Origin: an uncultured bacterium
GTDB taxonomy: Bacteria > Actinomycetota > Actinomycetes > S36-B12 > CAIYMF01
Assembly (NCBI GenBank): GCA_903826575.1
Contig: CAIKEU010000020.1
Coordinates: 1-42,136, forward strand
Reading direction: 5' to 3'
DNA length: 42,136 nucleotides
Shown here: piece by piece, positions 27,920 to 30,957 of the stretch
Layout of the letters: every line of letters starts with the position of its first letter
Numbering within the stretch: the stretch's first letter is position 1
Translations under genes and position numbers: made by a program
The notes under the pieces: model-generated
What the model was told of the DNA's origin: nothing
The model's database searches: none
Seen by the model: only the letters and a program-made list of their open reading frames with translations

Positions 27920-28115
27920 CTGCGTCCCCCTCTGTTTTCGCGCGAACCCGCGCGCCTGAGAGCTTCACCGCTTGTGGCGGCTTTCACCGTCGGCGGGGAT
28001 CGGAACGATCCCACTTTCCAGAGACGCCATCCCGGACGGTCCGTTGTGCCTGAGAGGTTGGCGGGGAGTTGCTCCTTCGGCGTCCATCGCTGGCTGCGAT
28101 AGAACTCTCCCGACC
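27920..28115 (-). promoter_or_regulatory. Tandem glycine riboswitch in the gcvP leader
   Basis: Two glycine aptamers in series, read on the minus strand. Aptamer 1 (about 28112-28013) has GGGAGAG, GACGCCGAAGGAGCAA, the conserved CTCTCAGGC at 28056-28048 and ends in CTCTGGAAAG. Aptamer 2 (about 28012-27924) has GACGGTGAAAGCCGCC, CTCTCAGGC again at 27962-27954, a GCGCGC hairpin and ends AAAACAGAGGG. These are the hallmark conserved segments of the gcvT-motif riboswitch, which turns expression on when glycine is bound cooperatively. It directly precedes gcvP. Confidence 0.95.
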
Positions 28116-28134
28116 GGGTTGCTGGCGCACTTTT

Positions 28135-28219: not shown

Positions 28220-28843
28220 TTAGGCCAGCGCGCGGGCGGCGCGACGAGCGGAAAGCTCGTCCATGACCTCTGACGAGACCTCAGTAACCTCGTCGACGCT
28301 TTCGCTGGGCAGGTCAGCCAGGCTGCCCTCTACCTCACGCCACACTCGTCCGACAGCGATGCCAAAGACACCCTGTCCACCCTGCACAAGGTCGATGACC
28401 TCATCCTGACTGCGACATTCATAAACACTCGCCCCATCACTCATCAACGTGACTTGGGCCAGATCGTCGACACCGCTATCGCGAAGATGCTCGACTGCGG
28501 TTCGAATGCTCTGAAGGGAGACACCGGTTTCAAGGAGCCGTTTGATGACCTTCAGCACGAGAATGTCGCGGAAGCTGTAAAGACGTTGGCTGCCTGAGCC
28601 CACGGCGTTGCGGACAGATGGCTCGAGGAGCCCCGTTCGGGCCCAGTAATCGAGTTGGCGGTAGGTGATACCGGCGGCGGAGCAGGCGATTGGTCCGCGG
28701 AATCCAACATTCTCAGTGCGCGCTTGAACATCGTCACCAAACAGCAGGCCCTGCTGGCCGGCTCGGCGCGCTGCCTCGATGCGACCCGCGGCTGACTCCA
28801 CCTGGGACTCAGGGAGTCCGCGACCCTCGTCTACACCACTCAC
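28220..28843 (-). CDS. MerR family regulator, Rv1830/McdR-like
   Basis: 207-aa MerR-type DNA-binding protein. The winged helix-turn-helix is at about residues 54-125 (ITYRQLDYWARTGLLEP, RLYSFRDILVLKVIKRLLETGVSLQSIR), preceded by an unusual about 50-residue N-terminal extension ending in a LLFGDDV patch, and followed by a domain with VYECRSQDEVIDLVQGGQGVFGIAVG. This layout and the gcvP/DUF151/FtsR/GarA setting match mycobacterial Rv1830, reported to affect cell division. The GTG at 28843 follows GGAGGT by 6 nt. It has its own good promoter at 28923-28951. No metal-binding cysteines of classic MerR sensors; the signal is unknown. Confidence 0.9.
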   Translation of the reverse strand: MSGVDEGRGLPESQVESAAGRIEAARRAGQQGLLFGDDVQARTENVGFRGPIACSAAGITYRQLDYWARTGLLEPSVRNAVGSGSQRLYSFRDILVLKVIKRLLETGVSLQSIRTAVEHLRDSGVDDLAQVTLMSDGASVYECRSQDEVIDLVQGGQGVFGIAVGRVWREVEGSLADLPSESVDEVTEVSSEVMDELSARRAARALA

Positions 28844-28922
28844 AGTGCTACCTCCGGCTGTCGTGATGCCGCGGATTGGGGGAACAACACCGCAGGAGTT
28901 ACATCAACGACATTCACTATGA

Positions 28923-28951
28923 AAGGTAAGGGGAACCGCTGCCGTGGTCAA
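28923..28951 (-). promoter_or_regulatory. Promoter of the Rv1830-like merR gene
   Basis: On the minus strand TTGACC (28951-28946), a 17-nt spacer and TACCTT (28928-28923): a well-formed sigma-70-type promoter. Transcription would start near 28916, about 70 nt before the GTG. Confidence 0.65.
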
Positions 28952-28983
28952 CGCCAATAGGGCCGACACGCCGAACGAATAGG

Positions 28984-28999
28984 TAACTCTCAAGTAACT
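28984..28999 (-). promoter_or_regulatory. Shared TTAnTTGAGnGTTACC motif, copy upstream of merR
   Basis: On the minus strand the stretch ending GTTACC reads TTACTTGAGAGTTACC, matching the element upstream of garA at 14 of 16 positions. It lies about 33 nt upstream of the -35 box. Likely binding site of a regulator common to this cluster, perhaps one of its MerR proteins (inference). Confidence 0.45.
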
Positions 29000-29017
29000 A
29001 TCGAGACTTGAAGTGTG

Positions 29018-29515
29018 CTACGAAGTCGCGCCGGTGTCACCCTCAGGTGTACCCCCGAGGAAATCATCGGGGGAAATCTGGTCGAGGAACTCGCGGAACT
29101 TCTCGACCTCATCCTCTTGCTCATCCGGGACGTCGATACCGGCCTCTTCAAGCACACTTTCTGCGCCAAAAATCGGAGTGCCTGTGCGTAGCGCCAACGC
29201 AATCGCGTCAGACGGACGCGCACTGACCTGCGTCCCGCCTTGAAACGCCAAAACCGCGTAAAAGATGCCGTCGCTGAGTTCCGTGATCTGAACTTGCTCG
29301 AGATGTGCTCCCAATGCATCCACCACATCGCGCAGCAGATCGTGGGTCAATGGGCGTGCGGGTACAACCCCTTGCTGAGCAAATGCGATTGCCGAGGCTT
29401 CATTGGCCCCGATCCAAATAGGCAGGAAGCGCTCTCCGTCGATCTCCCGGAGCAGCACGATGGGTTGATTCGAGGGCATTTCTACCCGCACTCCGACGAC
29501 GTCCAATTGGCGCAT
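29018..29515 (-). CDS. DUF151 bifunctional nuclease family protein
   Basis: 165-aa protein of the BFN/DUF151 family (Rv1829 equivalent by position). Core motifs: VGVRVEMPSNQPIVLLRE, FLPIWIGANEASAIAFAQQG, RPLTHDLLRDVVDALGAHLEQVQI and VSARPSDAIALALRTGTPIF, followed by an acidic C-terminal tail that varies in the family. Some members are reported to have DNase/RNase activity; whether this one does is unknown. The ATG at 29515 is 6 nt after TAGGGT, which suggests a leaderless transcript, though GGAG sits very close to the ATG. Part of the conserved actinobacterial gcv/garA block. Confidence 0.93.
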   Translation of the reverse strand: MRQLDVVGVRVEMPSNQPIVLLREIDGERFLPIWIGANEASAIAFAQQGVVPARPLTHDLLRDVVDALGAHLEQVQITELSDGIFYAVLAFQGGTQVSARPSDAIALALRTGTPIFGAESVLEEAGIDVPDEQEDEVEKFREFLDQISPDDFLGGTPEGDTGATS

Positions 29516-29521
29516 AACTCC

Positions 29522-29527
29522 ACCCTA
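29522..29527 (-). promoter_or_regulatory. -10 box of leaderless DUF151 gene
   Basis: TAGGGT on the minus strand, then 6 nt (GGAGTT), then the ATG at 29515. Confidence 0.5.
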
Positions 29528-29617
29528 ACCGTGTTGCGCGGGCCAAGCATCCGTAACGGGCGACCTGATGTTCCAGACGGGTTGGGAACAATCACCCCGG
29601 CGCCGCGGCTGCGCCAA

Positions 29618-30349
29618 TCACCGGCTAAGTTCAGCTGCTAATCCAGCCTTAACCAGAGACGAATGCAGCCGAACGCTTAACGCCGCCAACTGACGAATCG
29701 CATCGTCGGCACGTTGCTGACTTTCCGGATCACGCTGGCGCAGCATGGGATTCACGACTTGCTCCACGAGACCAACTTCACGGTCCGCGGCAATCTTGAA
29801 GGTGCGCATGTGGCGTGGTTCGATCCCGAAGGCAGCCATCTCGGCGATCGTGACAGCGATCGCAAGTGCATCTGCGTCGTAGTGGGACCCACGTTTAGCG
29901 ATCAGGCCGTAACCCTCAACTTGGGTGAGCAGCTCGTCATCAAGTTGAGCTTCATCAAGTAATTCCTTGCGCGAGAGGCGAACATCGGCCGACGAAGGCC
30001 GAAACGACTCCGATGATGGCAGCCCGTCTGTCGACGCCAGCGCACGTGGAACGCGTGGCCCACCTCCGGAAGCGCTCGGTTCTAGTCCGCGGTCGATGGC
30101 GTCAAGATTGTCTCGAATCACCTTCAGCGGCAGGTACTGATCACGCTGGCAGGCCAAGATGTAACGCAACCGCTCAAGGTCAGCATGGCTGAACTTGCGG
30201 TAGCCGCTAGCCGTGCGCTGCGGATTGATCAGGCCTTCGGACTCCAAGAACCGGATCTTGGAAATCGTGACGTCGTCAAAATCCGGTCGCAGATAGGCCA
30301 AGACATCACCGATGCCCATCAATCCTCGCGACGTGGCAACTGCGGTCAT
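29618..30349 (-). CDS. ftsR: MerR family regulator FtsR (Rv1828-like)
   Basis: 243-aa MerR-type transcription factor. The helix-turn-helix starts at once (GIGDVLAYLRPDFDDVTISKIRFLESEGL, about 12-40), then INPQRTASGYRKFSHADLERLRYILACQRDQYLPLKVIRDNLD. A linker with Ser/Arg follows, then a C-terminal domain (LLDEAQLDDELLTQVEGYGLIAKRGSHYDADALAIA). Same architecture as Corynebacterium FtsR and mycobacterial Rv1828, regulators linked to division genes. Its ATG overlaps the garA stop by one base (ATGA), so it is translationally coupled to garA. Confidence 0.93.
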   Translation of the reverse strand: MTAVATSRGLMGIGDVLAYLRPDFDDVTISKIRFLESEGLINPQRTASGYRKFSHADLERLRYILACQRDQYLPLKVIRDNLDAIDRGLEPSASGGGPRVPRALASTDGLPSSESFRPSSADVRLSRKELLDEAQLDDELLTQVEGYGLIAKRGSHYDADALAIAVTIAEMAAFGIEPRHMRTFKIAADREVGLVEQVVNPMLRQRDPESQQRADDAIRQLAALSVRLHSSLVKAGLAAELSR

Positions 30350-30861
30350 CAGTTCTGCCCTCCCTCGTTAGCGGCGGACTCGAGATAAACGAATCTGTAC
30401 TTCCCGATCTGCACCTCATCACCGCCAAAGAGCGCCTGACGCTCGATGCGGTGCCGGTTTACGTAACTGCCGTTGAGGCTTCCCGCATCGGCTATTTCCC
30501 AACCACCCGACGTGGCGTGCAACTCGGCGTGATGGCGCGAGACGGTGACATCGTCGAGGAACAGTTCGCATTCGGGCGTGCGGCCAATGACGATCACCGG
30601 GTCTGCAGGGTCAAGGACGTATCGGGCTCCCTCTTGCGGACCACGCAACACGACGAGCATCGCTTGACCCGAGTCGAGCTGGCCGACAGTCGTTTCGGTC
30701 ACAGGCGGCATCGGGGCTGAATCGCCCTCATGCGCAACGCGAAGACCAAGAACTCCGGTGCTGTAAGCCGGGTCCTCACCTGGCAGCGAAGTTCCACACA
30801 GTGAGCAGTACAGGGCAACGTCTTCTGCCGCTGCACCGCATCGTGTACATGTCTGACTCAT
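30349..30861 (-). CDS. garA: FHA-domain protein GarA with N-terminal zinc ribbon
   Basis: 170-aa signalling protein that, in mycobacteria, controls 2-oxoglutarate and glutamate metabolism after phosphorylation by PknB/PknG. The N-terminus carries a zinc ribbon (CTRCG at 5-9, CSLCG at 19-23), absent from mycobacterial GarA. The phospho-acceptor motif TETTVGQLD holds T57/T58. The FHA domain (about 68-160) has GRTPECELFLDDVTVSRHHAEL and SLNGSYVNRHRI, with the usual Arg, Ser-Arg-His and Asn for phosphothreonine binding. The ATG follows AGGAGGGG. Its own promoter is at 30888-30916. It is coupled to ftsR by a one-base overlap. Confidence 0.95.
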   Translation of the reverse strand: MSQTCTRCGAAAEDVALYCSLCGTSLPGEDPAYSTGVLGLRVAHEGDSAPMPPVTETTVGQLDSGQAMLVVLRGPQEGARYVLDPADPVIVIGRTPECELFLDDVTVSRHHAELHATSGGWEIADAGSLNGSYVNRHRIERQALFGGDEVQIGKYRFVYLESAANEGGQN

Positions 30862-30887
30862 GGACCCCTCCTACATCTGTACTGATG

Positions 30888-30916
30888 AGCGTACGGGGGG
30901 TCCTCGCGCAGCACAA
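30888..30916 (-). promoter_or_regulatory. Promoter of the garA-ftsR operon
   Basis: On the minus strand TTGTGC (30916-30911), a 17-nt spacer and TACGCT (30893-30888). An inverted repeat sits directly upstream of the -35 box. Confidence 0.65.
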
Positions 30917-30920
30917 GGGG

Positions 30921-30957
30921 TAACCCTCAACTAATGGTTTACATTTGCTGAGAGTTA
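30921..30957. promoter_or_regulatory. Inverted repeat upstream of the garA promoter
   Basis: TAACCCTCA (30921-30929) and TGAGAGTTA (30949-30957) pair at 8 of 9 positions around a 19-nt centre. It lies from 4 nt upstream of the -35 box, a position suited to an activator. The arm nearer the promoter matches the element upstream of the other merR gene. Confidence 0.5.

Follow-up and report, generated by a model that had tools for sequence, protein, structure and literature searches.

A predicted FtsR operator upstream of garA-ftsR and mcdR, in addition to ftsZ, in an uncultured actinobacterium and its relatives

The 42,136-nucleotide contig CAIKEU010000020.1 of an uncultured actinobacterium (the whole of which is called the window below) carries a gene block that includes garA, the division regulator gene ftsR and a MerR-family gene, merR2, which is called Rv1830/McdR-like, and hence mcdR, from its gene order rather than from a family model. 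An earlier reading of the bare letters (below, the sequence-only reading) had pointed to a 16-nucleotide element shared by the regions upstream of the garA and merR2 promoters. Our analysis makes it probable that this element is one arm of an operator for FtsR and that FtsR acts at the garA block, at merR2 and at ftsZ. The operator would be a 25-bp dyad whose consensus is close to AACYCTCRA-N7-TYGAGRGTT; the regulator, whose gene is adjacent to garA, would bind one such dyad upstream of garA and so at its own block, a second upstream of merR2, and another at ftsZ. The first two would be new targets of a known regulator, as the FtsR protein, the box and the regulation of ftsZ through it have been described before. 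In many actinobacteria the box is found both at the operon of ftsR itself and at mcdR, which suggests a previously unreported link between two division controls; no paper on an FtsR-mcdR link was found in the open-licence literature that was searched. The predicted core of ftsZ, garA-ftsR and mcdR would tie together Z-ring synthesis, a 2-oxoglutarate switch protein and a second regulator of division and DNA repair.

The element lies where the sequence-only reading had put it, upstream of both promoters, and both promoters are as it described them. All genes, promoters and dyads of the window discussed here are on the minus strand. The merR2-side copy, TTACTTGAGAGTTACC, runs from 28997 to 28982 and the garA-side copy, TTAGTTGAGGGTTACC, from 30934 to 30919, and the two are identical at 14 of 16 positions. 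The merR2 promoter is TTGACC-N17-TACCTT (28923-28951, with TTGACC at 28951-28946 and TACCTT at 28928-28923), and that of garA is TTGTGC-N17-TACGCT (30888-30916, with TTGTGC at 30916-30911 and TACGCT at 30893-30888). Exact matches to the 16-mer pattern occur only at these two places, both in the window and in the whole 3,010,238-bp genome; with up to three mismatches the window contains 5 matches, where 1.14 are expected and the maximum among 100 shuffles was 4. The 16-mer consists of the right arm of a 25-bp dyad plus a trailing ACC that is not kept across the genus. At merR2, where the symmetry had been overlooked, the full dyad is AAGTCTCGA-tagttac-TTGAGAGTT (28985-29009), which ends 33 nt before the -35 hexamer and is centred at about -81 relative to the inferred start. 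At garA conservation falls on AAATGTAAA-ccattag-TTGAGGGTT (30922-30946), 5 nt upstream of the -35 hexamer, and the centre of this unit, calculated by hand from the coordinates, is at about -53. The garA copy had instead been taken for one arm of an inverted repeat with 19 nt between the arms. That repeat does exist (GTAACTCTCA at 30958-30949, and TGAGGGTTAC), but its far arm has no counterpart in the closest relative, L011, and the 19-nt repeat was therefore ruled out as a functional unit; its outer arm, AACTCTCAG (30948-30956), is an extra half-site-like sequence that is not conserved.

Both dyads have the 9 + N7 + 9 layout of the FtsR box published for the Corynebacterium glutamicum ftsZ promoter, AACCCTAAAGTAAAGGTTGAGGGTA, and they agree with it in being 25-bp imperfect inverted repeats whose 9-bp arms, like AACCCTnAA and TTGAGGGTT, flank a 7-bp spacer (PMC6683498). 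A similar motif is described there for all other actinobacterial ftsZ promoters analysed in that study, and the present organism further resembles C. glutamicum in having an FtsR ortholog and a box at ftsZ. To avoid circularity, a symmetric matrix was trained only on ftsZ upstream regions (31/33, with the window's family left out) and then used to score other genes. By the leave-family-out matrix the merR2 dyad scores 23.6 and the garA dyad 21.2 (p 0.002 for each), and the ftsZ box of the same genome (locus L150) scores 16.7 (p 0.002). The merR2 dyad is also the only match without mismatches to the strict consensus AASYCTCRAN7TYGAGRSTT in the 3.0-Mb genome. The garA dyad departs from that consensus at 3 positions, and since 25 sites with up to three mismatches are found in the genome versus 20 in a reversed control, the three-mismatch class to which garA belongs is near background genome-wide; the ftsZ box is degenerate and is not among these matches.

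Within the genus the ftsZ-trained matrix finds a box at garA in 11 of 11 genomes (p≤0.008), at merR2 in 10 of 10 and at ftsZ in 11 of 11 (p=0.002 for the latter two); the eleventh merR2 region is absent from the count because the contig ends first, and in one genome (L016) the best garA site is a second, downstream dyad that is discussed below. Control regions upstream of gcvH, the bifunctional nuclease gene (bfn) and ftsR reach p≤0.05 in 1, 0 and 0 of the 11 genomes, respectively, those of bfn and ftsR being largely coding sequence. A looser form of the dyad consensus, at up to one mismatch, has 12 sites in 8 of the 11 genomes; garA or merR2 accounts for 8 of these sites, and the reversed control has no site at all. 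Pairwise identities in the arms are 0.65 at garA and 0.73 at merR2, in the spacer 0.51 and 0.57, and in the flanks 0.27-0.34, although the arm values are inflated through the picking of best-scoring boxes, which counts against them.

The class was sampled by 60 genomes hand-picked from a search of 148, mostly one per genus. At p≤0.05 a box is found upstream of garA in 33/60 and upstream of merR2 in 39/58, while the bfn and ftsR controls give 1/58 and 1/60. A wider set of loci, in which some genomes are counted twice as whole-genome and contig copies, gives 41/108 for garA and 51/108 for merR2 at the same threshold, with 5/95 for gcvH, 1/107 for bfn and 5/110 for ftsR. Of five named Nocardioides loci, L130, L133, L134 and L140 have a box at both genes and L136 does not. 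The element recurs at garA, merR2 and ftsZ across the genus as well as in many other genomes of the class, and the absence from relatives that would have told against the sequence-only reading is not what we see. Strong dyads also lie within parA-like genes (G000, G001 and G006; L172, L253 and L254); they are inside coding sequence for what by eye appears to be a conserved peptide, so they are probably constrained by the protein and were not counted as targets.

One family, f20, allows the box to be compared with the presence of ftsR. In the class sample all 7 of its genomes with an ftsR match have an ftsZ box of 25-28 bits, and none of the 5 without an ftsR match over the cut-off has a strong one (scores -7.2 to 6.7). 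In four of the latter (L269-L272) garA, the nuclease gene and merR2 stand close together, without ftsR and without a strong ftsZ box. Genome G071, which has a merR2 box and no ftsR match, was left out of this comparison because its contig ends just past bfn, so that ftsR was probably not assembled; G065, G100, G103 and G155, which also have no ftsR match over the cut-off, are not part of it either (G065 and G103 have weak merR2 matches, G155 has none, and G100 is at a contig start). FtsR is the likely regulator, then, because of the likeness to the published box, the matches to a matrix trained on ftsZ, and the lack of a strong ftsZ box in the f20 genomes without ftsR, and it is from the first and last of these that we infer its binding. 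The dyads, their conservation and their positions relative to predicted promoters are established at the level of sequence.

Several observations weigh against this reading. The five f20 genomes without ftsR may share a single loss, two of them reach p 0.02-0.03 at ftsZ through weak sites far from the start, and the garA and merR2 boxes of this family are absent or weak (scores ≤5.9) even where ftsR is present, so that the loss comparison speaks for ftsZ only. The left arm of the window's own garA dyad is weak. When a score of at least 12 is asked for, neither box is present in 23 of the 58 genomes sampled from the class, both are in 14, only that of garA in 5 and only that of merR2 in 16 (Fisher p 0.026), and many small-genome relatives lack a strong box at garA or merR2, among them Nanopelagicaceae/Planktophila (L082, L083, L096) and the 1.2-1.4-Mb genomes L197 and L198. 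The gcvP control is above chance in the wider locus set, with 16/74 at p≤0.05 and 7 at p≤0.01. Finally, C. glutamicum differs from the present case in that the nine FtsR peaks reported for it by chromatin affinity purification and sequencing include none at odhI/garA or cg1633 (PMC6683498), so the garA and mcdR targets are not universal.

The position of the boxes bears on what FtsR might do at each promoter. Promoters were called as sigma-70-like (TTGAC with at most one mismatch, 16-19 bp, TANNNT) and distances were measured to them; after removal of duplicates and of regions shorter than 150 nt there were 158 garA and 157 merR2 regions, of which 41 and 63, respectively, have a best score of at least 12. 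At merR2 the box is upstream of the -35 hexamer in 49 of the 63, in the spacer in 1 and downstream of the -10 hexamer in none, and 13 have no promoter call. At garA 21 of the 41 boxes are downstream of the -10, 9 are upstream and 1 is in the spacer, and the remaining 10 regions, including that of the window because its -35 is TTGTGC, have no promoter call; shuffled flanks give counts of at most 1.2. Boxes in the spacer are thus single cases at both genes, and neither window promoter has the arrangement of a classical MerR operator, with a dyad between -35 and -10 and a 19-20 bp spacer, since both have 17-bp spacers and dyads that lie upstream. Of the nine upstream garA cases, six come from the window's genus. 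In 8 of its 11 genomes the garA box has its centre at -54 to -58, and 8 of the 11 have a second garA dyad at +10 to +14; in this species, G004 and G008 no downstream garA dyad scoring at least 8 was found.

These positions suggest that mcdR would be activated by FtsR from sites upstream of the -35, in line with the activation of C. glutamicum ftsZ by FtsR from a site centred at -73 (PMC6683498), and that garA-ftsR would be repressed by its own product in lineages where the box is just downstream of the start. The contrast in box position thus predicts opposite signs at the two promoters. Other data sit less well with it. None of 45 ftsZ boxes is upstream of a called promoter, 5 are downstream and the rest are uncalled, although ftsZ is activated by FtsR in C. 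glutamicum, and the M. tuberculosis ftsZ motif is said to lie between the -10 and -35 (PMC6683498). Nor does helical phasing of the mcdR box help: gaps between box and -35 in the genus of 32-33 and 43-44 hint at steps of one turn (Rayleigh p 0.0007 for a period of 10.5 and 50 loci), and this signal was lost once related genomes were collapsed by family (p 0.09 for 31 family-by-gap values and p 0.75 for 24 events).

For the species of the window itself the sign at garA-ftsR is less clear. Only the upstream site, at about -53, remains here, so its garA-ftsR may be under positive control, or FtsR may repress it by hindering polymerase; we lean slightly toward activation. A reading in which FtsR is an activator at both promoters of this species, with positive feedback on its own operon in addition to activation of mcdR, has almost as much to be said for it as against it: both window boxes are upstream of the -35, at about -53 and -81, like the -73 site from which FtsR activates C. 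glutamicum ftsZ, but in other lineages a garA box past the start is the commoner arrangement, and most of the genus has the second dyad at +10 to +14, a usual place for a repressor. That second dyad could instead act as a hairpin in the messenger RNA rather than as a protein site, as its CTCGAC...GTCGAG could by eye form a short stem in the leader. This we consider unlikely, as the dyad has the 9 + N7 + 9 layout of the FtsR box and other lineages have a higher-scoring box at the same place; covariation is unable to tell whether such a repeat works as a dyad in DNA or as a stem in RNA.

We put forward, tentatively and with somewhat more doubt than confidence, the wider proposal that FtsR is a widespread hub in the Actinomycetes and that the place of its box decides the effect: besides acting at ftsZ it would restrain garA-ftsR from just past the start and activate mcdR from upstream of the -35, feeding the McdR-WhiB2 division loop and setting GarA dosage, and some lineages, this species included, would have come to a different sign of self-control through a shift of the garA box. 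The feedback circuit envisaged by the sequence-only reading fits this, because ftsR follows garA within the block; the tie that this reading drew to GarA and nitrogen depends on presumed co-transcription.

That reading had also proposed one regulator for both units, either FtsR or the Rv1830-like protein. A single regulator, FtsR, is what the likeness of the dyad to the FtsR box and its recurrence support, and there are two ways in which another protein could still be responsible. The HspR box, CTTGAGT-N7-ACTCAAG, has a spacer of the same 7 nt, and a second protein of this genome (G000) has a weak FtsR match, so the sites might belong to a third regulator whose operator looks alike, for instance HspR or some other member of the MerR family. 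We think this improbable, because the HspR arms are in the opposite order, the sites fit a matrix trained on ftsZ, and genomes of f20 that lack ftsR lack the ftsZ box as well. More improbable still is control of both promoters, its own among them, by the Rv1830-like protein, McdR, through binding to the element. McdR belongs to the MerR family and its gene lies beside the sites, and a weak match to the McdR motif (3 mismatches, 28897-28914) is present in the merR2 leader, but the motif itself, AATnACAnnnnTGTnATT as given in PMC9040748, is unlike the element, its number in the window is no more than chance would give (6 matches versus 8.0 expected), and one of the three sites in this genome with 1 mismatch to it stands before a WhiB-type gene, which is also the case in mycobacteria. 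Chance similarity of two short sequences would fit the presence of just two exact copies in the window, the weak left garA arm and a garA dyad that alone would not stand out genome-wide, and is hardly credible given recurrence at the same places with matched controls.

FtsR could also be a second input to the McdR-WhiB2 loop. In mycobacteria WhiB2 activates mcdR through the motif cGACACGc (PMC9040748), and a WhiB2-type site that matches it, GGCGTGTCG (reverse complement CGACACGCC; 28964-28972, minus strand), lies between the merR2 dyad and the -35 hexamer. Counted on both strands, the core CGACACGC occurs in 59 of 157 merR2 regions, where shuffles give 2.8, in 4 of 158 garA regions, and in 6 of 49 ftsZ regions, where shuffles give 0.65; 34 of 41 placeable cases are 11-13 nt before the -35. 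At locus L291 of the same genome (G000:C47, around 70445) a McdR motif with 1 mismatch precedes a gene that its cysteine and GxWGG pattern mark as WhiB-type. With a WhiB2-type site at mcdR and a McdR-type site at a WhiB-type gene, the mycobacterial loop (PMC9040748) seems to exist here too, and FtsR would feed it because the mcdR promoter also carries the WhiB2-type site. The available text of the McdR-WhiB2 paper does not contain Rv1828, and FtsR is not named in it (PMC9040748). A separate feature of the merR2 leader, TGTAACTC (28896-28903, minus strand), may be a McdR half-site or a leader structure; GTAACTC is present in 25 of 157 merR2 regions versus 1 of 158 garA regions.

The FtsR ortholog of M. 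tuberculosis, Rv1828, reportedly binds its own promoter region (FEBS J, 2018), and mcdR is not known to be one of its targets. The motif proposed for Rv1828 is said to overlap the FtsR box only partly (PMC6683498). Attempts to find a ligand for FtsR failed, as stated in the same paper (PMC6683498), and a table in a review gives fatty acids for Rv1828 and its target as unknown (PMC9909328).

The block itself is read in the order gcvH, garA, ftsR, the bifunctional nuclease gene, merR2 and then gcvP, and a strongly conserved four-gene cluster of garA/odhI, ftsR, nuclease gene and merR has been described (PMC6683498). The garA/odhI-like gene (30349-30861), which precedes ftsR, encodes an FHA domain (Pfam FHA 1.5e-17); its best NCBIfam match, OdhI, scores 133.6 bits and thus below the cut-off of 200, and its name rests on the FHA domain and its place in the block. 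ftsR (29618-30349) matches the NCBIfam equivalog NF050798 for FtsR with 279.6 bits (cut-off 150), and the C-terminal part of the protein matches the Rv1828 structure 5ydc (E 7e-23). Residues of its N-terminal domain such as I13, G14, R33, R45, Y50 and R51 are nearly invariant in 60 genomes, and the best public matches to this FtsR are from actinobacterial metagenome-assembled genomes, one of them a Candidatus Nanopelagicales. The nuclease domain gene, bfn, occupies 29018-29515 (Pfam BFN_dom 5e-41) and merR2 28220-28843 (Pfam MerR_1 8e-15). FtsR-like dyads occur upstream of gcvP in L080, L082, L084, L085, L107, L121 and L147, relatives in which garA and merR2 have weak boxes or none. In the window a tandem glycine riboswitch with two RF00504 aptamers (56.8 and 39.4 bits) is present upstream of gcvP and downstream of merR2, at 27925-28122 on the minus strand.

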